DNA of 64,000 bases from Astropecten irregularis (lineage: Eukaryota; Echinodermata; Asteroidea; Paxillosida; Astropectinidae), in NCBI GenBank assembly GCA_963971285.1, contig OZ020253.1:18922528-18986527 (forward strand). The letters run 5' to 3'. The stretch's first letter is position 1, and every line of letters starts with the position of its first letter. Below, piece after piece: positions 15,061 through 62,160 of this stretch. Below the pieces are notes generated by a model that saw only the letters and a program-made list of their open reading frames with translations, was not told the origin of the DNA and did not search any database. Made by a program: the position numbers and the translations under genes.

Positions 15061-15375
15061 ATCTAACTTATTATCAATAATTCTGCCAATTTTTTAAATG
15101 GTTTAATTGAAGCGCTTCTAAACAGTCAATGGCTAAATTGGTGCAATTATTGGACACTTGGAAATTGTGGATATTACAAGATGATTAAGTTTAAAAAAAA
15201 GTTCAGTTACAATTGAAACTTACAACAATTTCTAACATCATCTTATAACTTTATTAGCTGTTCCGACATTTCGGATGTCGGAACAGGTTTAGTTTTTGCT
15301 TAGATTTTTATTATTATTATTAGCTGTTCCGACATTTCTGATGTCGGAACAGGTTTTGTTTTTGTTCTGATTTTT

Positions 15376-15424
15376 AGCTGTTCCGACATTTCTGATGTCG
15401 GAACAGGTTTTGTTTTTGTTCTGA

Positions 15425-15457
<33 letters not shown>

Positions 15458-17449
15458 GCTGTTCCGACATTTCCGATGTCGGAACAGGTTTTGTTTTTCT
15501 TCTGATTTTTATTATTATTATACTTTATCACCCCAAATTTTGTTTATTCCTAATCTTTTATAATGTTTGTCTGGTCAGCTTATATGAGGTATCATATGAA
15601 AGCTTATAATCTGAAGTTAATCCTAAGACTGAGTTTGATAAATTTATTAATTAATTAGGCACGTGACAGCTCATTTGCATATTTAATTAGTCAATTTTGT
15701 TCGCAGCATATCTTGAGAACGACAAAGGCTATGAATATGATTCTTTTTGCAAAGGCTTAGTAGCATCATGTAGTTGTGCATGCTACCAAGAAATGTACCG
15801 TGACGTCATCATGACGTCATCAAAAATGCTGATTTTATTATTAGCAGCATATCTCGAGAACGGTAAGTGCTACGGTAATGATTCTTTTTGCAAAGGCTTA
15901 GTAGCAACATGTAGTTGTGCATGCTGCCAAAAAATTTACCGTGACGTCATCATGACGTCATTACAAATGCTGATTTTATTATTAGCAGCATATCTCGAGA
16001 ACGGTAAGTGCTACGGTATTGGTTCTTTTTGTAAAAGCTTTGTTACATCATTTAGTTGTGCATGCTGCTCCGAAATTTACAGTGACGTCATCATGACGTC
16101 ATCAAAAAAGGTAATTTTTGGTTTATAGCAGTATATCTCGAGAACGGTAAGTGCTACGGTATTGGTTCTTTTTGTAAAAGCTTTGTTAGACCCTGTATAT
16201 TTGCATGCTGTTGTGAAATTAACCGTGACGTCATTATGACGTCATCAAAAGGCATAATTTATGTGCAAACAGAGAACATTGAGAATGGCAAAAGCTCCAT
16301 GGGAACGATTCTTTTCACAAAAGCTTTGCAAGAAACTTTAGATGAACGCTGCTTTGTAAATGACCGTGACGTCATCATGACGTCATCGAAGCTTATAAAG
16401 TTGATCAAATAAGTCGGAACAGCTCCGTGTTCGTCCACGAACACTTAAATGTCTAGTTATTATTATACTTTATCACCCAAAGTTTGTTTATTCCTGATCT
16501 CTTACTTAGCTTCTTCTGATCAGCTTATTTGAGGTATCATATGAAAGCTTATAAGCTGAAGTTAATCCTAAGACTGAGTTTGTTAAAATTCTTAATTAAT
16601 TATGCACGTGACAGCTCATTTGCATATTTAATTAGTACATTTTGTTAGCAGCGTATCTCAAGAACTACAAGTGCTATAAAAATAATTCTTTTTCCAAAAG
16701 CTTTGTTACATCATGTAGTTATGCATGCTGCCAAGAAATTAACAGTGACGTCATCATGACGTCATCAAAAATGCTGATTTTTATTAGAAGCAGCATATCT
16801 CGAGAACGGTAAGTGCTAAGGCATTGATTCTTTTTGTAAAAGCTTTGTTACATCATGTAGTTGTGCATGCTGTCCCAAAATTTACAGTGACGTCATCATG
16901 AAGTCATCAAAAAAGGTAATTTTTAATTCTTTAATAATTAAGCACGTGACAGCTCATTCAAATTTTTAATTAGTCAATTTTGTTAGCAGCATATCTCGAG
17001 AACGACAAAGGCTATGAATATGATTCTTTTTGCAAAGGCTTAGTAGCATAATGTAGTTGTGCATGCTGCCAAGAAATTTACCGTGACGTCATCATGACGT
17101 CATCAAAAATGATGATTTTTTGTTTATAGCATCATATCTCGAGAACGGTAAGTGCTACGGTAATGATTCTTTTTGTAAAAGCTTTGTTACATCATGTAGT
17201 TGTGCATGCTGCCCCTAAATTTACAGTGACGTCATCATGACGTCATCAAAAAAGGTAATTTTTGGTTTATAGCAGTATATCTCGAGAACGGTAAGTGCTA
17301 CGGTATTGGTTCTTTTTGTGAAAGCTTTGTTAGAAACTGCAGATGCATGCTGCTTTGCATAAAATGACCATGACGTCATCGGAGCTTATAAGGCTGATCA
17401 AATAAGTCGGAACAGCTCCGTGTTCGTCCACGAACACTTAAATGTCTAG
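15376..17449 (+). mobile_element. Helitron-like element, one nested insertion
   Basis: The head at 15376 entered the T-run of the 15322 head (GATTTTT then AGCTG). It is interrupted by the element at 15467-16456; the body resumes at 16457 and ends in CTAG at 17449. The tail region has a short deletion form ending CATAAAATGACCATGACGTC. Confidence 0.75.
15467..16456 (+). mobile_element. Uninterrupted element (subfamily d)
   Basis: Head with CTTCTG after the T-rich block and body beginning ACTTTATCACCCCAAATTTT. This head-body combination defines subfamily d. The tail hairpin and CTAG at 16453-16456 are intact. It holds about five CRE-pair monomers. Confidence 0.85.
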
Positions 17450-17574
17450 TTAGCTGTTCCGACATTTCCGATGTCGGAACAGGTTTTGTTTTTGTTCTGA
17501 TTTTTATTATTATTAGCTGTTCCGACATTTCTGATGTCGGAACAGGTTTTGTTTTTGTTCTGATTTTTATTATT

Positions 17575-19443
17575 AGCTGTTCCGACATTTCCGATGTCGG
17601 AACAGGTTTTGTTTTTCTTCTGATTTTTAGCTGTTCCGACATTTCTGATGTCGGAACAGGTTTTGTTTTTGTTCTGATTTTTATTATTATTATTATTATT
17701 ATTATACTTTATCACCCAAAGTTTGTTTATTCCTGATCTCTTACTTAGCTTCTTCTGATCAGCTTAAATGAGGTATCATATGAAAGCTTATAAGCTGAAG
17801 TTAATCCTAAGACTGAGTTTGTTAAAATTCTTAATTAATTATGCACGTGACAGCTCATTTGCATATTTAATTAGTCAATTTTGTTAGCAGCGTATCTCGA
17901 GAACTACAAATGCTATGAAAATAATTCTTTTTGCAAAGGCTTAGTAGCATCATGTAGTTGTGCATGCTGCCAAGAAATTTACCGTGACGTCATCATGACG
18001 TCATCAAAAATGCTGATTTTATTTTTAGCAGCATATCTCGAGAACGGTAAGTGCTACGGTAATGATTCTTTTTTTAAAAGCTTTGTTACATCATGTAGTT
18101 GTGCATGCTGCCCCGAAATTTACAGTGACGTCATCATGACGTCATCAAAAAAGGTAATTTTCGGTTAAGAGCATTATATCTGGTGAACGGTAAGTGCTAC
18201 GGTATTGGTTCTTTTTGTAAAAGCTTTGTTAGACCCTGTAGATTTGCATGCTGTTGTGAAATTAACTGTGACGTCATTATGACGTCATCAAAAGGCATAA
18301 TTTATGTTTGCAGCATATCTTGAGAATGACAAAAGCTATGGTAATGATTCTTTTCACAAAAGCTTTGTTAGACAATTTAGATGCACGCTGCTTTGTAAAT
18401 GACCGTGACGTCATCATGACGTCATCGGAGCTTATAAAGCTGATCAAATAAGTCGGAACAGCTCCGTGTTCGTCCACGAACACTTAAATGTCTAGTTATT
18501 ATTATTATACTTTATCACCCCAAATTTTGTTTATTCCTAATCTTTTATAATGTTTGTCTGGTCAGCTTATATGAGGTATCATATGAAAGCTTATAATCTG
18601 AAGTTAATCCTAAGACTGAGTTTGATAAATTTATTAATTAATTAGGCACGTGACAGCTCATTTGCATATTTAATTAGTCAATTTTGTTCGCAGCATATCT
18701 TGAGAACGACAAAGGCTATGAATATGATTCTTTTTGCAAAGGCTTAGTAGCATCATGTAGTTGTGCATGCTACCAAGAAATTTACCGTGACGTCATCATG
18801 ACGTCATCAAAAATGCTGATTTTATTATTAGCAGCATATCTCGAGAACGGTAAGTGCTACGGTGATGATTCTTTTTGCAAAGGCTTAGTAGCAACATGTA
18901 GTTGTGCATGCTGCCAAAAAATTTACCGTGACGTCATCATGACGTCATTACAAATGCTGATTTTATTATTAGCAGCATATCTCGAGAACGGTAAGTGCTA
19001 CGGTAATGATTCTTTTTGTAAAAGCTTTGTTACATCATTTAGTTGTGCATGCTGCTCCGAAATTTACAGTGACGTCATCATGACGTCATCAAAAAAGGTA
19101 ATTTTTGGTTTATAGCAGTATATCTCGAGAACGGTAAGTGCTAAGGTATTGGTTCTTTTTGTAAAAGCTTTGTTAGACCCTGTATATTTGCATGCTGTTG
19201 TGAAATTAACCGTGACGTCATTATGACGTCATCAAAAGGCATAATTTATGTGCAAACAGAGAACATTGAGAATGACAAAAGCTCCATGGGAACGATTCTT
19301 TTCACAAAAGCTTTGCAAGAAACTTTAGATGAACGCTGCTTTGTAAATGACCGTGACGTCATCATGACGTCATCGAAGCTTATAAAGCTGATCAAATAAG
19401 TCGGAACAGCTCCGTGTTCGTCCACGAACACTTAAATTTCTAG
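17575..19443 (+). mobile_element. Interrupted element (subfamily d)
   Basis: The head at 17575 has TTTCCGATG and CTTCTG. After the nested copy 17629-18495 the body resumes as ACTTTATCACCCCAAATTTT, exactly the subfamily-d body predicted from the head. The tail reads TTTCTAG instead of TGTCTAG, ending 19443. Confidence 0.85.
17629..18495 (+). mobile_element. Uninterrupted element
   Basis: The head entered the T-run of the 17575 head (GATTTTT then AGCTG). The complete body has a monomer with a TTTTTTTAAAAGC variant. The tail is intact and CTAG ends at 18495. Confidence 0.85.
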
Positions 19444-19460
19444 TTATTATTATTATTATT

Positions 19461-20326
19461 AGCTGTTCCGACATTGCTGATGTCGGAACAGGTTTTGTTT
19501 TTGTTCTGATTTTTATTATTATTATTATTATTATTATACTTTATCACCCAAAGTTTGTTTATTCCTGATCTCTTACTTAGCTTCTTCTGATCAGCTTATA
19601 TGAGGTATCATATGAAAGCTTATAAGCTGAAGTTAATCCTAAGACTGAGTTTGTTAAAATTCTTAATTAATTATGCACGTGACAGCTCATTTGCATATTT
19701 AATTAGTCAACTTTGTTAGCAGCGTATCTCGAGAACTACAAATGCTATGAAAATAATTCTTTTTGCAAAGGCTTAGTAGCATCATGTAGTTGTGCATGCT
19801 GCCAAGAAATTTACCGTGACGTCATCATGACGTCATCAAAAATGCTGATTTTATTTTTAGCAGCATATCTCGAGAACGGTAAGTGCTACGGTAATGATTC
19901 TTTTTTTAATTGCTTTGTTACATCATGTAGTTGTGCATGCTGCCCCGAAATTTACAGTGACGTCATCATGACGTCATCAAAAAGGTAATTTTTGGTTAAG
20001 AGCATTATATCTGGAGAACGGTAAGTGCTACGGTATTGGTTCTTTTTGTAAAAGCTTTGTTAGACCCTTTAGATTTGCATGCTGTTGTGAAATTAACTGT
20101 GATGTCATTATGACGTCATCAAAAGGCATAATTTATGTTTGCAGCATATCTTGAGAATGACAAAAGCTATGGTAATGATTCTTTTCACCAAAGCTTTGTT
20201 AGACAATTTAGATGCACGCTGCTTTGTAAATGACCGTGACGTCATCATGACGTCATCGGAGCTTATAAAGCTGATCAAATAAGTCGGAACAGCTCCGTGT
20301 TCGTCCACGAACACTTAAATGTCTAG
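19461..20326 (+). mobile_element. Uninterrupted element with variant head loop
   Basis: The head hairpin loop reads TTGCTG rather than TTTCTG, a private change. The body resembles that of 17629-18495 and the tail is intact, ending 20326. Confidence 0.85.
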
Positions 20327-21334
20327 TTATTATTATTATTATACTTTATCACCCAAAGTTTGTTTATTCCTGATCTCTTACTTAGCTTCTTCTGATCAGC
20401 TTAAATGAGGTATCATATGAAAGCTTATAAGCTGAAGTTAATCCTAAGACTGAGTTTGTTAAAATTCTTAATTAATTATGCACGTGACAGCTCATTTGCA
20501 TATTTAATTAGTCAATTTTGTTAGCAGCGTATCTCGAGAACTACAAATGCTATGAAAATAATTCTTTTTCCAAAAGCTTTGTTACATCATGTAGTTGTGC
20601 ATGCTGCCAAGAAATTTACAGTGACGTCATCATGACGTCATCAAAAATGCTGACTTCTATTATTAGCAGCATATCTCGAGAACGGTAAGTGCTACGGTAA
20701 TGATTCTTTTTGTAAAAGCTTTATTACATCATGTAGTTGTGCATGCTGCCCCAACATTTACAGTGACGTCATCATGAAGTCATCAAAAAAGGTATTTTTT
20801 AATTCTTTAATAATTAAGCACGTGACAGCTCATTTAAATTTTTAATTAGTCAATTTTGTTAGCAGCGTATCTCTAGAACGACAAAGGCTATGAATATGAT
20901 TCTTTTTGTAAAAGCTTTGTTACCTCATGTATTTGTGCATGCTGCCCCAAAATTTACAGTGACGTCATCATGACGTCATCAATAAAGGTAATTTTTGGTT
21001 AATAGCATTATATCTCGAGAACGGTAAGTGCTACGGTATTGGTTCTTTTTGTAAAAGCTTTGTTAGACCCTGGAGATTTGCATGCTGTTGTGAAATTGAC
21101 TGTGACGTCATTATGACGTCATCAAAAGGCATAATTTATGTTTGCAGCATGTCTTGAGAATGACAAAAGCTATGGTACTGATTCTTTTTACAAAAGCTTT
21201 GTTAGAAACTTTAGATGCACGCTGCTTTGTGAATGACCGTGACGTCATCATGACGTCATCGGAGCTTATAAAGCTGATCAAATAAGTCGGAACAGCTCCG
21301 TGTTCGTCCACGAACACTTAAATGTCTAGTTATT

Positions 21335-24300
21335 AGCTGTTCCGACATTTCCGATGTCGGAACAGGTATTGTTTTTGCTCATGTTTTCTCGCTCATTAGC
21401 TTTGTGCACAAAGTTTGTTTATTCGTAATCTTTTATAATCTTTTTCTGGTGAGCTTATATGAGGTATCTTATGAAAGCTTATAAGCTGAAGTTAATCCCA
21501 AGACTGAGTTTGTTAAAATTCTTAATTAATTAGTCGCGTGACAGTCATTTGAATATTTAATTAGTAATTTTTGTTAGCAGCGTATCTCGAGAACGGCAGG
21601 TGGTACGGAATTAATTCTTTTTGCAAAAGCTTAGTAACACCCTGTAGATGTGCATGCTGCCATAAAATTTGTGACGTTACGTCATCATGACGTCACAACC
21701 GGAAGTTGAATTTTGACGCGAAATAACTCAAAAACTAATGGATTTGGGCATTTAAAACCAACAGTCTAAAAAATAGAGACATGCTAGGGCTTTCAGAAAA
21801 TATAAGTGATGACGTCATACGGGTTACACAGCGCCCTCTACGGTTGATTAAAGATATACAGTGATTACGTAATCCGAAAAAAACCAACGGATTTCCGTGA
21901 AATTTGGTAAGTGTCAAGCACTGGAACACCTCCTTATGTTTGTGAAGTTTGAATGTGATGACGTCATTCAACCGGAAGTTATGTGCTTTTAAAGGAAAAA
22001 TGACGTCATTGTTAAAATACTATTTACTCGGTAACGGCATATGCTAAGAAAATAACTCTTTTTTCCAAAAGCTTGTTTACATCCTTTAGTTGTGCATGCT
22101 GCAATGAAAATAGCCGCGAAGTCATCATGACGTCATAAAACTGGCTGTTTTAAAGCCCGGGATCGAGGGCCCATAATGTATATGTGCATGGCCATTATGG
22201 TATGTGTGTGTACATTGCATGTGGTACTCTTTACAGTGAATCCCCAAGACCCCGAATTAGCTGGGACTGGTTTATCTTAACACGCCGGCTTCAAAGATCC
22301 AAAAATGAACAATGCAGAGTATAGCACAATATTCCTATGATACTTAATGAATGTTTTTGTGAAAAAAATCAGAAATATATGTCGTGTAATTAAGGTTATA
22401 ACACAAAAACACTATAAGGGCAAATTAGGTCGTATACGTATTTCCAGCCTCAGCAATTGTTAGGATGTCGCACACCAATATGGTTTTATAGATGTACTGG
22501 TAGCTGTGACTTTGTTGCAGCTGCCGCATGAGAATTCCAGGAAGGCGATACATCACGTACGATGGTTTTAGCCATACACTGGCAAAACTTTAACAATAAC
22601 TGAATTAGGAAAATCCGTCTGTTGAAACCATAATTAGGCTTTTCAGAATGATTCACAAAATGGTTTTTGAGGTGACGAAATGTTTGCGACTTGACAAAAT
22701 GTTTTCGGGTTGACGTAATGTTTGCGAGTTGAGGCAATGTTTTAGAGTTGACGCAATGTTTGCGAGTTGAGGCAATGTTTTCGAGTTGACGTAATGTTTG
22801 CGAGTTTGCGCAATGTTTTAGAGTTGACGTAATGTTTGCGAGTTGAGGCAATGTTTTCGAGTTGACAAAATGTTTGCTACTTGACAAAATGTTTTCGGGT
22901 TGACGCAATGTTTGTGAGTTTACGGAATGTTTTCGAGTTGACGTTATGTTTGCGAGTTGGCGCAATGTTTTAGAGTTGACGCAATGTTTGCGAGTTGAGG
23001 CAATGTTTTCGAGTTGGCGCAATGTTTGCGAGTTTGCGCAATGTTTTCGAGTTGACGTAATGTTTGCGATTTTCCGCAATGTGTTAGAGTTGACGTAATG
23101 TTTGCGAGTTGAGGCAATGTTTTCGAGTTGACGAAATGTTTGCTACTTGACAAAATGTTTTCGGGTTGACGCAATGTATGAGTTTACGGAATGTTTTCGA
23201 GTTGACGTAATGTTTGCGGGTTGGCGCAATGTTTTAGAGTTGACGCAATGTTTGCGAGTTGAGGCAATGTTTTCGAGTTGGCGCAATGTTTGCGAGTTGG
23301 CGCAATGTTTTAGGGTTGAAGCAATGTATGCGAGTTGAGGCAATGTTTTCGAGTTGGCGCAATGTTTGCGAGTTGACACAATGTTTTTGAGTTGGCGCAA
23401 TTAATGTTTGCGAGTTGACGTAATGTTTGCGATTTGAGGCAATGTTTTAGAGTTGATGTAATGTTTGCGAGTTGAGGCAATGTTTAAGAGTTGACGCAAT
23501 GTTTAAGAGTTGACACAATAGTAAAGGCAAGCATGGGCACCAAAAAGTGCCCAAAATGCTATGTAAGAGGTAGGCCAGCAAGTACATGACCAGGCACTGT
23601 TGCCACGGTAACAATTTAGGTACGTGTGTAGTATACAAGGGCATATACATGTAGTAGGATATTGAAAGTACTGTAAAGTCTCCATTATTTTGCGTGTAAA
23701 GTCTCCATTATTTTGCGTGTGGAGGTTGTGTTATCAGGCTTAGTTTCATTACCCCATCAGTTTCATATACTTGTAAATTTTGAGAGCGACAAGTGCTACG
23801 AACTTGATTCTTTTATCTGTTATATCATGTACACCTGTACATGTAGTTGTGTACGTGTATGCTGCCACGAAAATGACTGTGACATCATTACGATAAGTCA
23901 TTGTCATCGAAATTTGGGTTTCCTATTTAAAGATACGTGATTGAAAGATTTTTTTTCTACGGTTAATACTAAAATGTCCGTGAATTACTTGAATAAAAAT
24001 CATTTGTCAGAGAATGTGACATTGAGACTGAAGTCACTGATAGAATTGCTACGAGGAACATTAAAAACTAAAATACACCATACAGCCCTTATACCTCAAA
24101 ACAAAAGAATAATCTTCCGCTTTGTGTGACGTCTCGTGACCATGGCTTGCGATATGAAGGTAGATTTAGGTCGATCGGCAGCACACCAATAGCGCCACCA
24201 AGCATCTTAACGTTATGAAAAATGCTGATTTTTTTGTTTGCAGTATATCTCGAGAACGACAAATGCTATGGTAATGATTCTTTTTGCAAAAGTTCTGTTA

Positions 24301-25274
24301 GATCCTGAAGATGTACATGCGGCAGTGAAAATAAATGTGATGTCACCATGACGTCATAAAAAGCTGAATTTTATTCCGTATCGTTAAGAATGTCTGATTG
24401 TCAGGAAACTTGGTATGTGTGATGTCTGTGCTATAATAATACTCCAATAATGTTTAAGTAATGATTTATAATTTGGAATTAAACATTTTTTGGTAAATTT
24501 TTTAGAATTGTCGAGATATGCTGGTAAATTTTACATCATATAGTTGTGCATGCTGCCAAGAAATTTACCGTGACGTCATCATGACGTCATCAAAAATGCT
24601 GATTTAATTATTAGCAGCACATCTCGAGAACGGTAAGTGCTACGGTAATGATTCTTTTTGTAAAAGCTTCGTTTCATCATGTAGTTGTGCATGCTGCCCC
24701 GAAATTTACAGTGACGTCATCATGAAGTCATCAAAAAGTAATGTTTAATTCTTTAATATTTAAACACGTGGCAGCTCATTTAAATGTTAAATTAGTAAAT
24801 TTTGTTAGCAGCGTATCTCGAGAACGACAAAGGCTATGAATATGATTCTTTTTGCAAAAGCTTAGTTACATCATGTTGTTGTGCATGTTGCCAAGAAATT
24901 TACCGTGACGTCATCATGACGTCATAAAAAAGGTAATGTTTGGGTAGCAGTATATCTCGAGAACGGTAAGTGATACGGTAATGGTTCTTTTTTATAAAAG
25001 CTTTGAAAGACCCTGTAGATGTGCATGCTGTTGTGAAATTAACTGTGACGTCATTATGACGTCATCAATAGGCATAATTAATGTTTGCAGGATATCTTGA
25101 GAATGACAAAAGCTATGGTAATGATTCTTTTCGCAAAAGCTTTGTTATAGCCTTTATATATGCATGCTGCTTTGGAAATGACCGTGACGTCATCATGACG
25201 TCATCGGAGCTAATAAAGCTGATCAAATAAGTCGGAACAGCTCCGTGTTCGTCCACGAACACTTAAATGTCTAG
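21335..25274 (+). mobile_element. 3.94-kb element with captured minisatellite (subfamily c), copy 1
   Basis: The head continues GGTATTGTTTTTGCTCATG rather than the usual form. The body adds unrelated DNA, CCGGAAGTT motifs and a 19-bp minisatellite (22655-23515) before returning to standard monomers and a normal tail. Open frames such as those at 22486-23079 and 23941-24129 are repeat shadows or short unsupported frames. A copy of the same length, 3940 bp, lies at 36626-40565 with different flanks. Confidence 0.85.
22655..23515 (+). repeat. 19-bp minisatellite inside the first 3.94-kb element
   Basis: About 45 units of the form N-CGAGTTGACGCAATGTTT, with units ending GTTTGCGAG and GTTTTCGAG or GTTTTAGAG often alternating. 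It yields open frames on both strands rich in TLRQLENIAS-like repeats, which I treat as shadows. Confidence 0.9.
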
Positions 25275-26276
25275 TTATTATTATACTTTATCACCCAAAG
25301 TTTGTTTATTCCTGATCTCTTACTTAGCTTCTTCTGATCAGCTTAGATGAGGTATCATATGAAAGCTTATAAGCTGAAGTTAATCCTAAGACTGAGTTTT
25401 TTTAAATTCTTAATTAATTAGGCACGTGACAGCTCATTTGCATATTTAATTAGTCAATTTTGTTAGCAGCGTATCTCGAGAACTACAAATGCTATGAAAA
25501 TAATTCTTTTTCCAAAAGCTTTGTTACATCATGTAGTTGTGCATGCTGCCAAGAAATTTACAGTGACGTCATCATGACGTCATCAAAAATGCTGATTTCT
25601 ATTATTAGCAGCATATCTGGAGAACGGTTAGTGCTACGGTAATGATTCTTTTTGTAAAAGCTTTATTACATCATGTAGTTGTGCATGCTGCCCTGAAATT
25701 TACAGTGACGTCATCATGAAGTCATCAAAAAAGGTAATTTTTAATTCTTTAATAATTAAGCACGTGACAGCTCATTTAAATTTTTAATTAGTCAATTTTG
25801 TTAGCAGCGTATCTCGAGAACGACAAAGGCTATGAATATGATTCTTTTTGGAAAGGCTTAGTTACATCATGAAGTTGTGCATGCTGCCCCGAAATTTACA
25901 GTGACGTCATCATGACGTCATCAAATAAGGTAATTTTTGGGTAATAGCATTATATCTCGAGAACGGTAAGTGCTACAGTATTGGTTCTTTTTGTTAAAGC
26001 TTTGTTAGACCCTGTAGATTTGCATGCTGTTGTGAAATTGACTGTGACGTCATTATGACGTCATCAAAAGGCATAATTTATGTTTGCAGCATATCTTGAG
26101 AATGGCAAAAGCTATGGTAATGATTCTTTTTACAAAAGCTTTGTTAGAAACTTTAGATGCACGCTGCTTTGTAAATGACCGTGACGTCATCATGACGTCA
26201 TCGGAGCTTATAAAGTTGATCAAATAAGTCGGAACAGCTCCGTGTTCGTCCACGAACACTTAAATGTCTAGTTATT

Positions 26277-26325
26277 AGCTGTTCCGACATTTCGGATGTC
26301 GGAACAGGTTTAGTTTTTGCTTAGA

Positions 26326-26361
<36 letters not shown>

Positions 26362-27138
26362 TTTATCACCCTCTAAGCTTGTTAACAGCTTATCTCTTCT
26401 TAGCTTCTTCTGATCAGCTTAGATGAGGTATCATATGAAAGCTTATAAGCTAAGGATCATACTGGCACTGAGTTGTAAAAATTCCTCATTAATTAGGCAC
26501 GTGACAGCTCATTTGCATATTTAATTAGTCAATTTTGTTAGCAGCATATCTTGAGAACGACAAAGGCTATGAATATGATTCTTTTTGCAAAGGCTTAGTA
26601 GCATAATGTAGTTGTGCATGCTGCAAAGAAATTGACCGTGACGTCATCATGACGTCATCAAAAATGCTGATTTTATTATTAGCAGCATATCTCGAGAACG
26701 GTAAGTGCTACGGTAATGATTCTTTTTGTAAAAGCTTTGTTACATCATGTAGTTTTGCATGCTGCCCCTAAATTTACAGTGACGTCATCATGACGTCATC
26801 AAAAAAGGTAATTTTTGGTTTATAGCAGTATATCTCGAGAACGGTAAGTGTTACGGTATTGGTTCTTTTTGTACAAGCTTTGTTAGACCCTGTAGATTTG
26901 CATGCTGTTGTGAAATTAACTGTGACGTCATTATGACGTCATCAAAATGCATAATTTATGATTGCAGCATATCTTGAGAATGACAAAAGCTATGGTAATG
27001 ATTCTTTTCACAAAAGCTTTGTTAGAAACTGCAGATGCATGCTGCTTTGTAAATGACCATGACGTCATCGGAGCTTATTAAGCTGATCAAATAAGTCGGA
27101 ACAGCTCCGTGTTCGTCTACGAACACTTAAATGTCTAG
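26277..27138 (+). mobile_element. Uninterrupted element (subfamily a)
   Basis: A subfamily-a head (TTTCGGATG, TTTAGTTTTTGCTTAG) is followed directly by a subfamily-a body (CTTTATCACCCTCTAAGC). The tail hairpin carries TCTACGA in place of TCCACGA. This intact copy establishes which head belongs with which body. Confidence 0.85.
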
Positions 27139-27140
27139 TT

Positions 27141-27246
27141 AGCTGTTCCGACATTTCCGATGTCGGAACAGGTTTTGTTTTTCTTCTGATTTTTATTAGC
27201 TGTTCCGACATTTCGGATGTCGGAACAGGTTTAGTTTTTGCTTAGA

Positions 27247-27278
<32 letters not shown>

Positions 27279-29423: not shown

Positions 29424-29425
29424 TT

Positions 29426-33411: not shown

Positions 33412-33460
33412 AGCTGTTCCGACATTTCTGATGTCGGAACAGGTTTTGTTTTTGTTCTGA

Positions 33461-33501
<41 letters not shown>

Positions 33502-43428: not shown

Positions 43429-43463
<35 letters not shown>

Positions 43464-44783: not shown

Positions 44784-44791
44784 TTATTATT

Positions 44792-46977: not shown

Positions 46978-47013
<36 letters not shown>

Positions 47014-51799: not shown

Positions 51800-54700
51800 A
51801 GCTGTTCCGACATTTCTGATGTCGGAACAGGTTTTGTTTTTGTTCTGATTTTTATTATTATTATTATTATACTTTATCACCCAAAGTTTGTTTATTGCTT
51901 ATCTCTTCTTAGCTTCTTCTGATCAGCTTAGATGAGGTATCATCTGAAAGCTTATAAGCTAAGGATCATTCCGTAACTGAGTTGTAAAAATTCTTCATTA
52001 ATTAAGCACGTGACAGCTCATTTGCATATTTAATTAGTCAATTTTGTAACCAGCGTATCTCGAGAACGGTAAATGCTACGGAAATGATTCTTTTTGCAAA
52101 AGCTTAGTAACATCATGTAGAGGTGCATGCTGCCATTAAAATGGTCGTGACGTCATCATGACGTCATCAAAAGGCTGTTTTTACGAAGCATATATTTTGA
52201 AAACGACATGTGCCACGGTAATGATTCTTATTGCTTATCTTTTCTTATCTTCGAGTGATTAATAGCTTAGATGAAGTATCTTAGGAATGCTTTTATAGGC
52301 TAAGGATCATTTTCACACTATAACAAAAATCCTTCATTAATTAGGCACGTGACAGCTCATTTGCATATTTAATTAGACTTTTTTGTAACCACCATATCTC
52401 GAGAACGACAAAGGCTATGAATATGATTCTTTTTGCAAAAGCATAGTAGCATCAGCTAAAGTATTATTATTATACTTTATCACCCAAAGTTTGTTTATTG
52501 CTTATCTCTTCTTAGCTTCTTCTGATCAGCTTAGATGAGGTATCATCTGAAAGCTTATAAGCTAAGGATCATTCCGTAACTGAGTTGTAAAAATTCTTCA
52601 TTAATTAAGCACGTGACAGCTCATTTGCATATTTAATTAGTCAATTTTGTAACCAGCGTATCTCGAGAACGGTAAATGCTACGGAAATGATTCTTTTTGC
52701 AAAAGCTTAGTAACATCATGTAGAGGTGCATGCTGCCATTAAAATGGTCGTGACGTCATCATGACGTCATCAAAAGGCTGTTTTTACGAAGCATATATTT
52801 TGAAAACGACATGTGCCACGGTAATGATTCTTATTGCTTATCTTTTCTTATCTTCGAGTGATTAATAGCTTAGATGAAGTATCTTAGGAATGCTTTTATA
52901 GGCTAAGGATCATTTTCACACTATAACAAAAATCCTTCATTAATTAGGCACGTGACAGCTCATTTGCATATTTAATTAGACTTTTTTGTAACCACCATAT
53001 CTCGAGAACGACAAAGGCTATGAATATGATTCTTTTTGCAAAAGCATAGTAGCATCAGCTAAAGTATTATTATTATACTTTATCACCCAAAGTTTGTTTA
53101 TTGCTTATCTCTTCTTAGCTTCTTCTGATCAGCTTAGATGAGGTATCATCTGAAAGCTTATAAGCTAAGGATCATTCCGTAACTGAGTTGTAAAAATTCT
53201 TCATTAATTAAGCACGTGACAGCTCATTTGCATATTTAATTAGTCAATTTTGTAACCAGCGTATCTCGAGAACGGTAAATGCTACGGAAATGATTCTTTT
53301 TGCAAAAGCTTAGTAACATCATGTAGAGGTGCATGCTGCCATTAAAATGGTCGTGACGTCATCATGACGTCATCAAAAGGCTGTTTTTACGAAGCATATA
53401 TTTTGAAAACGACATGTGCCACGGTAATGATTCTTATTGCTTATCTTTTCTTATCTTCGAGTGATTAATAGCTTAGATGAAGTATCTTAGGAATGCTTTT
53501 ATAGGCTAAGGATCATTTTCACACTATAACAAAAATCCTTCATTAATTAGGCACGTGACAGCTCATTTGCATATTTAATTAGACTTTTTTGTAACCACCA
53601 TATCTCGAGAACGACAAAGGCTATGAATATGATTCTTTTTGCAAAAGCATAGTAGCATCAGCTAAAGTATTATTATTATACTTTATCACCCAAAGTTTGT
53701 TTATTGCTTATCTCTTCTTAGCTTCTTCTGATCAGCTTAGATGAGGTATCATCTGAAAGCTTATAAGCTAAGGATCATTCCGTAACTGAGTTGTAAAAAT
53801 TCTTCATTAATTAAGCACGTGACAGCTCATTTGCATATTTAATTAGTCAATTTTGTAACCAGCGTATCTCGAGAACGGTAAATGCTACGGAAATGATTCT
53901 TTTTGCAAAAGCTTAGTAACATCATGTAGAGGTGCATGCTGCCATTAAAATGGTCGTGACGTCATCATGACGTCATCAAAAGGCTGTTTTTACGAAGCAT
54001 ATATTTTGAAAACGACATGTGCCACGGTAATGATTCTTATTGCTTATCTTTTCTTATCTTCGAGTGATTAATAGCTTAGATGAAGTATCTTAGGAATGCT
54101 TTTATAGGCTAAGGATCATTTTCACACTATAACAAAAATCCTTCATTAATTAGGCACGTGACAGCTCATTTGCATATTTAATTAGACTTTTTTGTAACCA
54201 CCATATCTCGAGAACGACAAAGGCTATGAATATGATTCTTTTTGCAAAAGCATAGTAGCATCATGTAGTTGTGCATGCTGCCAAGAAATTTACCATGACG
54301 TCATCATGACGTCATCAAAAATGCTGATTTTATTATAAGCAGCATATCTCGAGAACGGTAAGTGCTACGGTAATGATTTTTTTGTAAAAGATGTAGTTGT
54401 GCATGCTGCCTCGATTTTACAGTGACTTCATCATGACGTCATCAAAAAAGGTAATTTTTGGTTTATAGCAGTATATCTCGAGAACGGTAAGTGCTACGGT
54501 ATTGGTTCTTTGTAGATTTGCATGCTGTTGTGAAATTAACTGTGACGTCATCATGACGTCATCAAAAGGCATTATTTATGTTTGTAGCATATCTTGAGAA
54601 TGACAAAAGCTATGGTAATGATTCTTTTCACAAAAGCTTTGTTAGAAACTTTAGATGCACGCTGCTTTGTAAATGACCGTGACGTCATCATGACGTCATC

Positions 54701-56472
54701 GGAGCTTATAAAGCTGATCAAATAAGTCGGAACAGCTCCGTGTTCGTCCACGAACACTTAAATGTCTAGTTATTATTATACTTTATCACCCAAAGTTTGT
54801 TTATTGCTTATCTCTTCTTAGCTTCTTCTGATCAGCTTAGATGAGGTATCATCTGAAAGCTTATAAGCTAAGGATCATTCCGTAACTGAGTTGTAAAAAT
54901 TCTTCATTAATTAAGCACGTGACAGCTCATTTGCATATTTAATTAGTCAATTTTGTAACCAGCGTATCTCGAGAACGGTAAATGCTACGGAAATGATTCT
55001 TTTTGCAAAAGCTTAGTAACATCATGTAGAGGTGCATGCTGCCATTAAAATGGTCGTGACGTCATCATGACGTCATCAAAAGGCTGTTTTTACGAAGCAT
55101 ATATTTTGAAAACGACATGTGCCACGGTAATGATTCTTATTGCTTATCTTTTCTTATCTTCGAGTGATTAATAGCTTAGATGAAGTATCTTAGGAATGCT
55201 TTTATAGGCTAAGGATCATTTTCACACTATAACAAAAATCCTTCATTAATTAGGCACGTGACAGCTCATTTGCATATTTAATTAGACTTTTTTGTAACCA
55301 CCATATCTCGAGAACGACAAAGGCTATGAATATGATTCTTTTTGCAAAAGCATAGTAGCATCAGCTAAAGTATTATTATTATACTTTATCACCCAAAGTT
55401 TGTTTATTGCTTATCTCTTCTTAGCTTCTTCTGATCAGCTTAGATGAGGTATCATCTGAAAGCTTATAAGCTAAGGATCATTCCGTAACTGAGTTGTAAA
55501 AATTCTTCATTAATTAAGCACGTGACAGCTCATTTGCATATTTAATTAGTCAATTTTGTAACCAGCGTATCTCGAGAACGGTAAATGCTACGGAAATGAT
55601 TCTTTTTGCAAAAGCTTAGTAACATCATGTAGAGGTGCATGCTGCCATTAAAATGGTCGTGACGTCATCATGACGTCATCAAAAGGCTGTTTTTACGAAG
55701 CATATATTTTGAAAACGACATGTGCCACGGTAATGATTCTTATTGCTTATCTTTTCTTATCTTCGAGTGATTAATAGCTTAGATGAAGTATCTTAGGAAT
55801 GCTTTTATAGGCTAAGGATCATTTTCACACTATAACAAAAATCCTTCATTAATTAGGCACGTGACAGCTCATTTGCATATTTAATTAGACTTTTTTGTAA
55901 CCACCATATCTCGAGAACGACAAAGGCTATGAATATGATTCTTTTTGCAAAAGCATAGTATTATCATGTAGTTGTGCATGCTGCCAAGAAATTTACCATG
56001 ACGTCATCATGACGTCATCAAAAATGCTGATTTTATTATAAGCAGCATATCTCGAGAACGGTAAGTGCTACGGTAATGATTTTTTTGTAAAAGATGTAGT
56101 TGTGCATGCTGCCTCGATTTTACAGTGACTTCATCATGACGTCATCAAAAAAGGTAATTTTTGGTTTATAGCAGTATATCTCGAGAACGGTAAGTGCTAC
56201 GGTATTGGTTCTTTGTAGATTTGCATGCTGTTGTGAAATTAACTGTGACGTCATCATGACGTCATCAAAAGGCATTATTTATGTTTGTAGCATATCTTGA
56301 GAATGACAAAAGCTATGGTAATGATTCTTTTCACAAAAGCTTTGTTAGAAACTTTAGATGCACGCTGCTTTGTAAATGACCGTGACGTCATCATGACGTC
56401 ATCGGAGCTTATAAAGCTGATCAAATAAGTCGGAACAGCTCCGTGTTCGTCCACGAACACTTAAATGTCTAG
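51800..56472 (+). mobile_element. Element with internally duplicated body
   Basis: One head (51800) but two tails (CTAG at 54769 and 56472). The body from 51871 is expanded by tandem duplication (see the 51871-56482 repeat), which copied one tail without a head. Excluding the duplicated tail restores bracket balance and agrees with the T-run scar at 58337. Confidence 0.7.
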
Positions 56473-56482
56473 TTATTATTAT
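51871..56482 (+). repeat. 603-bp and 1703-bp higher-order tandem duplication
   Basis: Body starts (ACTTTATCACCC) occur at 51871, 52474, 53077, 53680, 54780 and 55383: steps of 603, 603, 603, 1100 and 603. The 603-bp unit ends at a private junction, CATCAGCTAAAGTATTATTA. The block 53077-54779 (1703 bp, including a tail) is repeated as 54780-56482. Units look almost identical, so the expansion is recent, or it is an assembly matter. Confidence 0.85.
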
Positions 56483-56483
56483 T

Positions 56484-57337
56484 AGCTGTTCCGACATTTC
56501 CGATGTCGGAACAGGTTTTGTTTTTGTTCTGATTTTTATTATTATTATTATACTTTATCACCCAATTTTGTTTATTGTTTATCTCTTCTTATCTTCTTCT
56601 GATCAGCTTAGATGAGGTATCATATGAAAGCTTATAAGCTAAGGATCATACTGGCACTGAGTTGAAAAAATTCTTAATTAATTAGCCACGTGACAGTCAT
56701 TTGAATATTTAATTAGTCAATTTTGTTAGCAGTATATCTCGAGAACGGAAAGTGCTACGGAAATGATTCTTTTTGCAAAAGCTATGTAATAGCATGTAGA
56801 TGTGCATGCTGCCATGAAATTTACCGTGACGTCATCATGACGTCATCAAAAAAGCTGATTTTTTTTTTAGCAGTATATCTCAAGAACGGTAAATGCTACG
56901 GTAATGATTCTTTTTCCAAAAGCTTAGTTATATCATGTAGTATTGCATGCTGCCACGAAATTTACTGTGACGTCATTATGACGTCATCAAAAAGGCTGAT
57001 TTTTGGTTCACAGCATATCTCAAGAACGGTAAATGCTACGGAAATAATTCTTTTTGCAAAAGCTTAGTTATATCATGTAGTTGTGCATGCTGCTACAAAA
57101 ATTACCATGACGTCATCATGACGTCATCAGAAAGGCTGATTTTTGGTTCACAGCATATCTCGAGAACGACAAATGCTATGGTAATGATTCTTTTTGTAAA
57201 AGCTTTGTTATATCTTGTAGTTGAGCATGCCGCTACGAAAATGAATATGACGTCATTATGACGTCATCAGAGCTTATAAAGTTGATTAAATAAGTCGGAA
57301 CAGCTCCGTGTTCGTCCACGAACACTTAAATGTCTAG
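56484..57337 (+). mobile_element. Uninterrupted element (subfamily f-like body)
   Basis: The head TTTCCGATG with GTTCTG precedes a body starting ACTTTATCACCCAATTTTG. Monomers here are more diverged than in most copies (TATTGCATGCTGCCACG, AACGGAAAGTGC), suggesting an older or separate lineage. Confidence 0.8.
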
Positions 57338-58345
57338 TTATTATTATTATTATACTTTATCACCCAAAGTTTGTTTATTCCTGATCTCTTACTTAGCTTC
57401 TTCTGATCAGCTTATTTGAGGTATCATATGAAAGCTTATAAGCTGAAGTTAATCCTAAGACTGAGTTTGTTAAAATTCTTAATTAATTATGCACGTGACA
57501 GCTCATTTGCATATTTAATTAGTACATTTTGTTAGCAGCGTATCTCAAGAACTACAAGTGATATAAAAATAATTCTTTTTCCAAAAGCTTTGTTACATCA
57601 TGTAGTTATGCATGCTGCCAAGAAATTAACAGTGACGTCATCATGACGTCATCAAAAATGCTGATTTTTATTAGAAGCAGCATATCTCGAGAACGGTAAG
57701 TGCTAAGGCATTGATTCTTTTTTGTAAAAGCTTTGTTACATCATGTAGTTGTGCATGCTGTCCCAAAATTTACAGTGACGTCATCATGAAGTCATCAAAA
57801 AAGGTAATTTTTAATTCTTTAATAATTAAGCACGTGACAGCTCATTCAAATTTTTAATTAGTCAATTTTGTTAGCAGCATATCTCGAGAACGACAAAGGC
57901 TATGAATATGATTCTTTTTGCAAAGGCTTAGTAGCATAATGTAGTTGTGCATGCTGCCAAGAAATTTACCGTGACGTCATCATGACGTCATCAAAAATGA
58001 TGATTTTTTGTTTATAGCATCATATCTCGAGAACGGTAAGTGCTACGGTAATGATTCTTTTTGTAAAAGCTTTGTTACATCATGTAGTTGTGCATGCTGC
58101 CCCTAAATTTACAGTGACGTCATCATGACGTCATCAAAAAAGGTAATTTTTGGTTTATAGCAGTATATCTCGAGAACGGTAAGTGCTACGGTATTGGTTC
58201 TTTTTGTAAAAGCTTTGTTAGAAACTGCAGATGCATGCTGCTTTGCATAAAATGACCATGACGTCATCGGAGCTTATAAGGCTGATCAAATAAGTCGGAA
58301 CAGCTCCGTGTTCGTCCACGAACACTTAAATGTCTAGTTTTTATT

Positions 58346-58394
58346 AGCTGTTCCGACATTTCTGATGTCGGAACAGGTTTTGTTTTTGTTCTGA

Positions 58395-58435
<41 letters not shown>

Positions 58436-59417
58436 CTTTATCACCCAAAGTTTGTTTATTCCTGATCTCTTACTTAGCTTCTTCTGATCAGCTTATTTGA
58501 GGTATCATATGAAAGCTTATAAGCTGAAGTTAATCCTAAGACTGAGTTTGTTAAAATTCTTAATTAATTATGCACGTGACAGCTCATTTGCATATTTAAT
58601 TAGTACATTTTGTTAGCAGCGTATCTCAAGAACTACAAGTGCTATAAAAATAATTCTTTTTCCAAAAGCTTTGTTACATCATGTAGTTATGCATGCTGCC
58701 AAGAAATTAACAGTGACGTCATCATGACGTCATCAAAAATGCTGATTTTTATTAGAAGCAGCATATCTCGAGAACGGTAAATGCTAAGGCATTGATTCTT
58801 TTTGTAAAAGCTTTGTTACATCATGTAGTTGTGCATGCTGTCCCAACATTTACAGTGACGTCATCATGAAGTCATCAAAAAAGGTAATTTTTAATTCTTT
58901 AATAATTAAGCACGTGACAGCTCATTCAAATTTTTAATTAGTCAATTTTGTTAGCAGCATATCTCGAGAACGACAAAGGCTATGAATATGATTCTTTTTG
59001 CAAAGGCTTAGTAGCATAATGTAGTTGTGCATGCTGCCAAGAAATTTACCGTGACGTCATCATGACGTCATCAAAAATGATGATTTTTTGTTTATAGCAT
59101 CATATCTCGAGAACGGTAAGTGCTACGGTAATGATTCTTTTTGTAAAAGCTTTGTTACATCATGTAGTTGTGCATGCTGCCCCTAAATTTACAGTGACGT
59201 CATCATGACGTCATCAAAAAAGGTAATTTTTGGTTTATAGCAGTATATCTCGAGAACGGTAAGTGCTACGGTATTGGTTCTTTTTGTAAAAGCTTTGTTA
59301 GAAACTGCAGATGCATGCTGCTTTGCATAAAATGACCATGACGTCATCGGAGCTTATAAGGCTGATCAAATAAGTCGGAACAGCTCCGTGTTCGTCCACG
59401 AACACTTAAATGTCTAG
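58346..59417 (+). mobile_element. Uninterrupted element
   Basis: A complete copy of the CTTATTTGAGG type with the shortened 3' region. Inserted in the remaining TTTTTATT of the 51683 head. Confidence 0.85.
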
Positions 59418-60431
59418 TTATTATTATTATTATACTTTATCACCCAAAGTTTGTTTATTCCTGATCTCTTACTTAGCTTCTTCTGATCAGCTTAAATGAG
59501 GTATCATATGAAAGCTTATAAGCTGAAGTTAATCCTAAGACTGAGTTTGTTAAAATTCTTAATTAATTATGCACGTGACAGCTCATTTGCATATTTAATT
59601 AGTCAATTTTGTTAGCAGCGTATCTCGAGAACTACAAATGCTATGAAAATAATTCTTTTTCCAAAAGCTTTGTTACATCATGTAGTTGTGCATGCTGCCA
59701 AGAAATTTACAGTGACGTCATCATGACGTCATCAAAAATGCTGATTTCTATTATTAGCAGCATATCTGGAGAACGGTAAGTGCTACGGTAATGATTCTTT
59801 TTGTAAAAGCTTTATTACAACATGTAGTTGTGCATGCTGCCCTGAAATTTACAGTGACGTCATCATGAAGTCATCAAAAAAGGTAATTTTTAATTCTTTA
59901 ATAATTAAGCACGTGACAGCTCATTTAAATTTTTAATTAGTCAATTTTGTTAGCAGCGTATCTCGAGAACGACAAAGGCTATGAATATGATTCTTTTTGG
60001 AAAGGCTTAGTTACATCATGAAGTTGTGCATGCTGCCCCGAAATTTACAGTGACGTCATCATGACGTCATCAAATAAGGTAATTTTTGGGTAATAGCATT
60101 ATATCTCGAGAACGGTAAGTGCTACGGTATTGGTTCTTTTTGTTAAAGCTTTGTTAGACCCTGTAGATTTGCATGCTGTTGTGAAATTGACTGTGACGTC
60201 ATTATGACGTCATCAAAAGGCATAATTTATGTTTGCAGCATATCTTGAGAATGGCAAAAGCTATGGTAATGATTCTTTTTACAAAAGCTTTGTTAGAAAC
60301 TTTAGATGCACGCTGCTTTGTAAATGACCGTGACGTCATCATGACGTCATCGGAGCTTATAAAGTTGATCAAATAAGTCGGAACAGCTCCGTGTTCGTCC
60401 ACGAACACTTAAATGTCTAGTTATTATTATT

Positions 60432-60531
60432 AGCTGTTCCGACATTTCCGATGTCGGAACAGGTTTTGTTTTTCTTCTGATTAGCTGTTCCGACATTTCC
60501 GATGTCGGAACAGGTTTTGTTTTTGTTCTGA

Positions 60532-60562
<31 letters not shown>

Positions 60563-62160
60563 ACTTTATCACCCAAAGTTTGTTTATTCCTTATCTCTTA
60601 CTTAGCTTCTTCGGATCAGCTTAGATGAGGTATCTAATGAAAGCTTATAAGCTGAAGTTAATCCTAAGACTGAGTTTGTTAAAATTCTTAATTAATTGAG
60701 CACGTGACAGCTCATTTGCATATTTAATTAGTCAATTTTGTAACCAGCATATCTCAAGAACAACAAAGGCTATGAATATGATTCTTTTTGCAAAGGCTTA
60801 GTAGCATCATGTAGTTGTGCATGCTGCCAAAAAATTTACCGTGACGTCATCATGACGTCATCAAAAATGCTGATTTTATAATTAGCAGCATATCTCGAGA
60901 ACGGTAAGTGCTACAATAATGATTCTTTTTGTAAAAGCTTTGTTACATCATGTAGTTGTGCATGCTGCCCCGAAATTTACAGTGACGTCATCATGACGTC
61001 ATCAAAAAAGGTACTTTTTGGTTAATAGCATTATATCTCGAGAACGGTAAGTGCTACGGTATTGGTTCTTTTTGTAAAAGCTTTGTTAGACCCTGTAGAT
61101 TTGCATGATGTTGTGAAATTAACTGTGACGTCATTATGACATCATCAAAATGCATAAGTTATGTTTGCAGCATATCTTGAGAATGACAAAAGCTATGGTA
61201 ATGATTCTTTTCACAAAAGCTTTGTTAGAAACTTTAGATGCACGCTGCTTTGTAAATGACCGTGACGTCATCATGACGTCATCGGAGCATATAAAGCTGA
61301 TCAAATAAGTCGGAACAGCTCCGTGTTCGTCCACGAACACTTAAAATGTCTAGTTTTTATTATTATTATACTTTATCACCCCAAATTTTGTTTATTCCTA
61401 ATCTTTTATAATGTTTGTCTGGTCAGCTTATATGAGGTATCATATGAAAGCTTATAATCTGAAGTTAATCCTAAGACTAAGTTTGATAAATTTATTAATT
61501 AATTAGGCACGTGACAGCTCATTTGCATATTTAATTAGTCAATTTTGTTCGCAGCATATCTTGAGAACGACAAAGGCTATGAATATGATTCTTTTTGCAA
61601 AGGCTTAGTAGCATCATGTAGTTGTGCATGCTACCAAGAAATGTACTGTGACGTCATCATGACGTCATCAAAAATGCTGATTTTATTATTAGCAGCATAT
61701 CTCGAGAACGGTAAGTGCTACGATAATGATTCTTTTTGTAAAAGCTTTGTTACATCATGTAGTTGTGCATGCTGCCCCGAAATTTACAGTGACGTCATCA
61801 TGACGTCATCAAAAAAGGTTAATTTTTGGTTTATAGCAGTATATCTCGAGAACGGTAAGTGCTACGGTATTGGTTCTTTTTGTAAAAGCTTTGTTAGACC
61901 CTGTAGATTTGCATGCTGTTGTGAAATTAACTGTGACGTCATTATGACGTCATCAAAAGGCATAATTTATGTTTGCAGCATATCTTGAGAATGACAAAAG
62001 CTATGGTTATGATTCTTTTCACAAAAGCTTTGTTAGAAACTTTAGATGCACGCTGCTTTGTAAATGACCTTGACGTCATCATGACGTCATCGGAGCTTAT
62101 AAAGCTGATCAAATAAGTCGGAACAGCTCCGTGTTCGTCCACGAACACTTAAATGTCTAG
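60432..62160 (+). mobile_element. Interrupted element (subfamily d)
   Basis: The head at 60432 has CTTCTG and was entered at GATT. After the nested 60483-61353 copy the sequence resumes CTAGTTTTTATTATT (displaced T-run) and then a subfamily-d body (ACTTTATCACCCCAAATTTT). Both the scar and the marker confirm the pairing. Confidence 0.85.
60483..61353 (+). mobile_element. Uninterrupted element
   Basis: Complete copy. The tail reads CACTTAAAATGTCTAG with one extra A, ending 61353. The body is moderately diverged (TTCGGATCAGC, GTACTTTTTGG). Confidence 0.85.

Follow-up and report, generated by a model that had tools for sequence, protein, structure and literature searches.

Helentrons and HINEs/DINE-1 elements, as presented in the sections of Thomas et al. 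2014 considered here (PMC4067079), share with the elements of the present locus a 5' subterminal inverted repeat (subTIR) with palindrome, a microsatellite, central tandem repeats, a 3' subTIR with stem-loop, insertion within TT with the Ts belonging to the element, a Rep-helicase-endonuclease partner and an occasional minus-strand ORF, but neither self-targeting nor such nests are described in those sections. The Cg_HINE elements of the Pacific oyster have the same anatomy, with a microsatellite and satellite-like repeats, but they are described as dispersed, and the word 'nested' is absent from the main text (PMC7492417). For the Helitron2-like FoHelis of Fusarium, self-insertion near the 5' end has been inferred, with several 5' termini on one copy; the part of that report used here gives single cases, with no tract reused repeatedly (PMC5148889). 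Nested intermediates and several 3' termini have been described for maize Helitrons, although a common internal target tract does not appear in the passages drawn upon (PMC3288121). In SaTar MULE arrays, transposon copies are joined by a microsatellite, but in the account consulted this lies outside the element, the arrays are uniformly non-nested and the elements have TIRs and TSDs (PMC5907723). Centromeric Helitron arrays likewise hold clustered copies with several 5' ends; as they are cited, many have several 5' ends and a single 3' end, whereas here tails outnumber heads (Xiong et al. 2016, cited in PMC12628747). Nested Helitrons and microsatellite-targeted arrays are already published. 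In the literature searched on self-targeting transposons, SaTar was the sole close case found, and a self-renewing internal landing site was not found. To our knowledge, the insertion preference of rolling-circle transposons is poorly understood beyond a preference for AT or TT.

In the present study, the window (the whole stretch of DNA analysed, 64,000 nt) was found to contain most of an array which we read, with a probability of roughly 0.8, as a nest of HINEs, partners of a Helentron, inserted for the most part in the T/TTA tract that immediately follows the head of a resident family copy (Table 1). A typical copy starts with a head whose hairpin has a 12-bp stem. The head is followed by the tract GATTTTT(ATT)n, by a body carrying tandem repeats about 141 bp long and by a tail made up of the 3' subTIR, a stem-loop and CTAG. 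The subterminal inverted repeats are AGCTGTTCCGAC in the head and GTCGGAACAGCT in the tail, and the stems read from the sequence are CTGTTCCGACAT/ATGTCGGAACAG (12 bp) and GTGTTCGT/ACGAACAC (8 bp). Such repeats mark Helentrons and HINEs, as do a microsatellite and central tandem repeats, both common but not universal traits of the group; here the tandem repeats are carried by the bodies, and of 21 uninterrupted heads 18 have (ATT)3-11 runs. At two paralogous empty-site joins, insertion had occurred within TT and without target duplication, the terminal Ts being the element's own. Outside the array, the same ends occur on an autonomous relative (C1:8709549-8729214, 19.7 kb); its 3188-residue stop-to-stop ORF carries PF14214, PF05970 and PF03372, and also OTU, and so encodes the Rep, PIF1 helicase and endonuclease domains of an autonomous partner, in which the endonuclease is AP-like and C-terminal. 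By these sequence characters the array elements are classified as non-autonomous Helentrons (HINEs), and the ends, the T^T insertion and the autonomous relative make more exact the initial annotation, which had called them Helitron-like. A canonical Helitron (Helitron1; 5'-TC start, A/T insertion) was rejected, as the head starts (TT)AGCTG and inserts at T^T. A SaTar-like microsatellite-targeted MULE was also rejected, the hosts being interrupted and no TSD being present at the two sites tested.

Table 1. Coordinates of the array and its parts (window numbering; run lengths in ATT units)
Feature	Position	Strand	Remarks
Nested HINE/Helentron array	15256..64000 in window; continues to 70157 outside window	+	Head/tail positions
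Outer head stack with TTA tracts (4 heads: 15256, which is G type, 15322, 15376, 15457)	15256..15521	+	First head in non-family DNA
Uninterrupted copy, F935 body family	15457..16456	+	Run of 3; reference for hosts 17575 and 27141
F984 element, head and body split by the 15457 copy	15376..17449	+	9+2 = 11, as in 2 uninterrupted relatives
Stack of 4 heads: 17452, 17515, 17575, 17629	17452..17705	+	
F935 element with 17629-18495 copy inside	17575..19443	+	0+3 = 3
Innermost F790a copy	17629..18495	+	C8, C10 and C11 relatives score higher than array ones
F987 element enclosing copies 17515 to 25274	17452..26271	+	3+1+2 = 6 vs 5 in uninterrupted copy (mismatch)
3.9-kb copy; its head is a variant lacking the TTA run	21335..25274	+	Identical to 36626-40565
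Second, identical 3.9-kb copy, other site	36626..40565	+	
F935 element with 27198-28477 copy inside	27141..29423	+	1+2 = 3
Stack of 5 heads, depth 7	30303..30622	+	
Element enclosing the deepest nest	30303..48990	+	Bracket pair H30303-T48947
F1321 element, two interruptions (36626-40565, 40580-41983)	36569..43320	+	1+4+4 = 9, as in 2 uninterrupted relatives
F1321 element, two interruptions (43380-44783, 44792-45647)	43323..46978	+	1+2+2 = 5 vs 9 in relatives (mismatch)
Body (G type) with tail; paired by brackets with the G head 15256, 35.6 kb away	50901..51680	+	4+3 = 7 vs 9 (mismatch)
F984 element, post hoc pair H51734-T58294	51734..58337	+	4+3+4 = 11; flanks GATT left, TTTTTATT right
F987 element, post hoc pair H51683-T60377	51683..60420	+	0+1+4 = 5; head base T vs C in 2 relatives
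Element with CTTCTG head and CCCCAAATTTTG body	60432..62160	+	60483-61353 inserted after GA of GATTTTT
Last tail in window	63790..63833	+	Further downstream tails 67301, 68090, 69322, 70114

Within the window, 37 heads and 39 tails were counted on the plus strand, and the opposite strand of these 64 kb yielded no tail; the array in full has 38 heads and 43 tails. A rolling-circle tandem Helitron array, with its many 5' ends and single 3' end, was rejected on these last counts. When heads are read as opening and tails as closing brackets from 15256, depth 7 is reached at 30546 and the count returns to zero at the tail 51637-51680, as had been claimed from the sequence beforehand. This balance is not a natural unit, since the array ends only at 70157 with five headless tails (60377, 62918, 67301, 68090 and 70114 in the bracket pairing of the whole array). 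Non-family DNA adjoins it at the first head (G type) and at the last tail (after a G-type body), which are separated by 54.9 kb, and several of the bodies in this interval have no head. The end at 62160 given in the initial annotation also falls short, the array going on for 6.2 kb beyond the window; the heads and tails lie at the places which that annotation gave. Stacks of up to five heads are seen (30303-30546); between the conserved stretch of the first head (..GA) and the next head, only T and ATT units are present at 17 of 17 head-head junctions, and the tail-head gaps also consist of T and ATT units only (20/20). Tails without a following head are succeeded by a T/ATT tract and then a body in 22 of 23 cases, the sole exception being the last tail (70114), which adjoins other DNA. 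Overall, for 37 of the 38 array heads the insertion site is a T/TTA tract that follows a head or tail of the family.

These junctions bear on a simple alternative, a tandem array without nested insertion, produced either through rolling-circle replication or through recombination of circles into the TTA tract. Plant Helitrons have been reported to form such arrays (Xiong 2016, as given in PMC12628747), a circle model has been proposed for SaTar MULEs in the part of that work considered here (PMC5907723), and 20 of the 38 heads do stand directly behind a tail. However, a tandem array predicts head-body and tail-head junctions only, and here 17 junctions are head-head and 22 are tail-tract-body; adjacent bodies are mostly of different families, and the two alignable hosts are interrupted and rejoin. 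Contradicted in this way, a tandem origin is highly improbable.

The nested reading was further examined by pairing and by restoration of hosts, and the array is a nest of mutually inserted elements. All nine testable bracket pairs agree in head type and body family (P=6e-5), and four of the nine have run lengths that give the exact sum (P=0.023; 5e-6 when combined with head type). In a second cluster, host 21040 rejoined is identical to the uninterrupted window copy 29426 at 137 of 142 positions and host 19062 to the uninterrupted copy 4910 at 698 of 709; both rejoin at T^T, and neither alignment has a gap at the cut. The prediction that removal of inner copies restores older elements thus stood for these two hosts and for head type in the window, and run length supported it in only four of nine pairs. 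Because of their run lengths, two bracket pairs are probably wrong, H51734 closing at T58294 and H51683 at T60377 instead; this post hoc re-pairing gives 6/9 for run sums and 8/9 for head types, but it was picked with the run lengths known, and its P values are therefore no independent evidence. The second cluster has 16 heads and 17 tails; its H8139 brackets a body of another type, its H3449 brackets an unexpected body, and its contiguous copy H28707 indicates that head type and body type are not strictly linked. We counted against the nest these three cases, the five failed run sums, and the unequal numbers of heads and tails in the array, in the second cluster and at the locus L040 (1 vs 3).

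Such surpluses of tails would be expected if the array had partly spread as composites, in which the first tail is skipped and one head moves with several tails, so that a body is not always its own insertion event. At L040, one head and three tails lie between non-family flanks, and its first tail-body junction shares 97.3% identity over 894 bp with one on C15 (cluster L005) and 97.1% with another on C25 (L001), the families themselves being alike; Helitrons with several 3' termini also occur in maize, in the portion of the report cited (PMC3288121). Within the array, however, the full-length identity between any two tail-body junctions is at most 97.5%, and we regard a partly composite spread as a credible but weaker possibility. 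Under the nest reading, the missing heads, which are direct repeats of about 60 bp, may have been lost later by slippage or unequal exchange; alternatively, one-headed composites may have moved through end-bypass.

The same habit was found at other loci, where similar stacks had been proposed as a check. Exact matches in the genome numbered 657 heads and 610 tails. The 100 heads listed on C1 (C1:1-20.93 Mb), assigned partly by eye, comprise 84 within family tracts, 3 within family bodies and 13 at other sites; the last two groups were counted against the nest model. Neighbours closer than 130 bp numbered 38 among these heads vs a mean of 0.06 for random placement in 20.93 Mb. General targeting of TTA microsatellites or of TT, with the family tract chosen only for its richness in TTA, would agree with the 37 nested array heads, all in T/TTA tracts, and with the TT insertion that the cited part of Thomas et al. 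gives as usual for Helentrons (PMC4067079). However, none of the 53 (ATT)6+ tracts away from exact family ends in C1:1-20.93 Mb had a listed head within 300 bp, and TTA tracts as such are therefore not the target. Among the heads listed on C1, only 1 of the 13 non-family insertions adjoins a TTA tract of at least 3 units, against the 84 of 100 in family tracts, and a T5 tract behind a head without a TTA run was also used. General targeting is accordingly quite unlikely, and in the sampled part of C1 these counts show a preference for own copies as target. In a scan of 88 kb of DNA, one (TTA)5 tract was seen outside the family, too few for a rate. Of the proposal that the family carries its own landing site in its TTA run, the reuse of the tract behind its own head stands, and the TTA microsatellite as the target does not.

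An excess of nests could also arise if copies inserted near their donor, or if other insertions were purged and mostly nests survived. The listed C1 copies are indeed clustered, and the array holds identical bodies, four of 1,321 bp and two of 3,888 bp; the identity of the two 3.9-kb copies ends in the tract at the element ends, and from there outward they differ. Nevertheless, for guest 17706 the best match within the array scores below relatives on C8, C10 and C11, and of the 40 bodies compared, 10 have a better match in the sampled DNA beyond the array than within it, the margin for some being under half a percentage point. Purging would need to remove nearly all other insertions, because family tracts make up about 3e-5 of the genome (an order-of-magnitude estimate). 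Local hopping or selection is thus an unlikely account, if less so than general TTA targeting.

For the nest of HINEs, we suggest that a new copy enters between two Ts without target duplication, mostly in the tract next to a resident head. The Rep/endonuclease complex would recognise this head, whose hairpin is its presumed start of transposition, and would integrate in the first downstream T tract; hairpin recognition is a proposed step. The arrival would supply a new tract, while the old head, the remaining tract and the body stay put, and the target would therefore be self-renewing and growing. The wider reading is offered tentatively, at slightly under even odds: a self-homing DNA transposon, whose Helentron machinery docks at the resident 5' hairpin and inserts in the adjoining T/TTA tract, may build and enlarge its own safe harbour across chromosomes, with most copies entering harmless DNA.

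The bracket grammar makes the order of nesting readable at one locus. Most sampled copies lie in the short tract of their own family and look-alike microsatellites are spared, which points to a testable self-recognition in target choice. Such recognition would explain the growth of satellite-like Helentron clusters, the origin of 5'-end stacks and surplus 3' ends, and how a transposon may multiply with little gene damage.

The head of the family was read as AGCTGTTCCGAC, a hairpin and GATTTTT(ATT)n, and the tail as GTCGGAACAGCT, a stem-loop and CTAG. As far as the accessible parts of both papers describe them, this is the anatomy of the Helentron-derived HINEs of Thomas et al 2014 (PMC4067079) and of oyster HINEs (PMC7492417). 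The window, C17:18922528-18986527, held 37 heads and 39 tails on the + strand, at the positions given by the initial annotation. The array, placed by that annotation at 15256..62160, was prolonged by two further 10-kb stretches and ends at coordinate 70157. As a whole it counts 38 heads and 43 tails, and non-family DNA adjoined both its first head and its last tail. With heads read as open and tails as close, the claimed maximum depth of seven and return to zero at 51680 were found again, but new heads follow, and then five headless tails.

Coordinates of the main features (bare numbers follow the window, continued beyond 64000)
Position	Feature	Details
5789-7337, 7961-10893, 12741-13335	Tandem arrays left of the nest	Units 68-bp, mostly about 92-bp, 193-bp
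15256	First head
70114	Last tail
about 15703-63764	~141-bp tandem repeats of bodies	Often hold TGACGTCATCATGACGTCATCA with palindrome TGACGTCA, a CRE-like site
22663-23519, 37954-38810	19-bp minisatellite GAGTTGACGCAATGTTTGC	Inside both identical 3.9-kb copies; overlapped by a 197-aa open frame
51871-54769, 54780-56472	Copies differing in count of ~603-bp internal units	Each unit starts ACTTTATCACCC behind a TATTATTATTAT stretch
C1:20899001-20932000	Second cluster	16 heads, 17 tails
C1:8709549-8729214	19.7-kb element	Head, tract and tail same as window copies; antisense stop-to-stop ORF, 3188 residues: DUF6570, Herpes_teg_N, OTU protease, Helitron_like_N, PIF1 helicase, C-terminal Exo_endo_phos
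L040:2576-5357 (C11)	Locus with one head, three bodies, three tails	Flanks non-family

Only T and ATT units followed the conserved stretch of the first head in all 17 head-head junctions of the array, and nothing else filled the 20 tail-head gaps; the remaining 23 tails were followed by tract and body in 22 cases, the last one leading into other DNA. A tract was also present in 18 of the 21 heads directly before a body, the three exceptions (21335, 29426, 36626) being variants that lack the TTA run. A tandem array, or recombination of a circle into a tract, predicts head-body and tail-head junctions only and does not fit, since head-head and tail-tract-body junctions were seen. Tracts between tail and body (e.g. 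16457-16466) kept at least two ATT units in 22/22 cases and exactly two in 13, as if about 10 bp of tract 3' of the insertion point may be required.

For host restoration, bodies were grouped by identity, the head type of each family was taken from copies with contiguous head and body, and this type was compared with that of the head which pairs by brackets with an interrupted body of the same family. A reference was available for nine of the 17 interrupted bracket pairs, and the head type agreed in all nine (P=6e-5, 200,000 shuffles of heads); five of these are of the commonest type and have little weight, so that the result is carried by G at 15256, C/GTTCTG at 17452 and C/CTTCTG at 17575 and 27141. 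One pair without a contiguous reference combines a CTTCTG head (60432) with a CCCCAAATTTTG body (61370). If a tract was merely split, the ATT units on the two sides of the guests, taken together, should equal the run found in uninterrupted relatives. These sums were exact in four of nine pairs (0+3 and 1+2 against 3, 9+2 against 11, 1+4+4 against 9; P=0.023, jointly with head type 5e-6) and off in five. Two failures disappear on post hoc re-pairing of H51734 with T58294, also suggested by the left flank GATT of the head and the right flank TTTTTATT of the tail, and of H51683 with T60377, with which the head base at 51683 disagrees. Three failures persist, for which microsatellite slippage is a ready excuse.

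The search of other loci that the annotation had proposed led to a second nested cluster, on C1, in which two hosts were interrupted within alignable sequence. Host 21040, cut at GATTT^TTCATT, was rejoined without gap at 137/142 to the uninterrupted window copy 29426, and host 19062, cut inside the body, at 698/709 to the uninterrupted copy 4910, gapless at the cut. Judged from these alignments, both joins show insertion at T^T without target duplication, the two Ts being part of the element. Of the six interrupted bracket pairs of this cluster, compared by eye, 3503, 3563, 19062 and 21040 agreed with contiguous relatives, while the T-type H8139 brackets a G-type body and H3449 an unexpected body; head-body linkage is not absolute, because the contiguous copy 28707 is itself mixed in head and body. 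Overall, the claim that removal of inner copies restores older elements held for head type and at the two empty sites, and in part for the run sums.

The 475.7-Mb genome (168 contigs) contained 657 exact heads and 610 exact tails. Target preference was evaluated in 100 listed heads covering C1:1-20.93 Mb, in which, by position, an exact head stood directly upstream of 38 and an exact tail of 28 others. Of the other 34, whose flanks were read by eye, 18 directly follow a diverged head or tail (in L061 only the final stretch of a tail), three lay inside family bodies (L045, inverted, L067 and L073) and 13 in other DNA, one of which (L062) adjoins a TTA tract of at least three units. Family tracts hold 84 of the 100 heads, some not independent (L050 and L051 have a common flank), and their share of the genome, taking some 20-30 bp for each of 657 heads, is estimated at roughly 3-4e-5; the excess is therefore of the order of ten thousandfold. 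General targeting of TTA tracts was considered with a pattern of at least six ATT units and, at its end, any base but A; this pattern misses tracts with other ends. It gave 72 tracts in the same region. For 19 of them an exact family head or tail lay on the same strand at a distance of no more than 200 bp; of the remaining 53, a few of which may adjoin diverged family copies, none had a listed head within 300 bp, and hence a TTA tract is not in itself the target. The T/ATT content of the array junctions supports the proposed repeated insertion into the TTA run of the family's own heads.

No difference separates copies 21335 and 36626 across 3,950 bp, counted from the head; the identity stops in the tract on each side and the flanks beyond differ, a pattern of transposition and not duplication. 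Four 1,321-bp bodies are identical as well, which makes a portion of the nest recent. Comparison of 46 tail-body junctions gave five pairs at 100%, which are the same place in overlapping loci, and a best match of 97.5% over the whole stretch within the array; hence there is no sign of block duplication of these junctions in the array. Local hopping by itself is not enough to account for the nest, as the closest known relatives of at least some guests are on other contigs: for guest 17706, matches on C8, C10 and C11 outscore its best array mate (C17:18942076; 18 of 896 candidates scored), and of 40 bodies (among 43) matched over most of their length, inside or outside the array, ten have a better match in a small sample of outside DNA, some with a margin under half a percentage point. 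Surplus tails are best explained by lost heads, the heads being ~60-bp direct repeats, and our guess is that one deletion between G-type heads left the four headless outer tails, giving a true depth of 11. Alternatively, they could be end-bypass composites, with which the locus L040 agrees as well as with head loss; its junction is about 97% alike to junctions on C15 and C25, leaving room for composites.

Scoring of 150 of 154 candidates gave at least 149 genomic matches to Helitron_like_N (PF14214); many of these stand in open frames of ~3000 residues, and many Helitron-like elements are apparently intact. One subtype, whose profile match begins at position 1, has some of its members in or near clusters of this family on C1 and C14. 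The 19.7-kb element on C1 encodes an endonuclease domain, described as the distinctive Helentron feature in the available text of PMC4067079. A tail stands directly before this element and tract and body after it; therefore it too is nested.

The Rep protein should bind the hairpin to start transposition. We propose that the machinery would recognise a resident head and then use the T tract beside it, because the hairpin is the expected Rep site, T5 without a TTA run was used and the sampled non-family TTA tracts were ignored. Nesting has been described for maize Helitrons with several 3' ends (PMC3288121), self-insertion with several 5' ends for Fusarium (PMC5148889), and microsatellite-targeted arrays for SaTar MULEs (PMC5907723), which, in the accessible portions of these papers, are uniformly non-nested, in contrast to the copies here. 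A literature search with most subscription papers outside its reach gave no Helentron in which a tract inside the element serves as a self-renewing landing site, which is weak evidence of absence; to that extent, this feature may be new. Insertion occurred at T^T at the two tested sites, and guests entered the tract that follows a family head, or one that follows a tail lying in such a tract; the host sequence stays in place, and each guest supplies a new tract.
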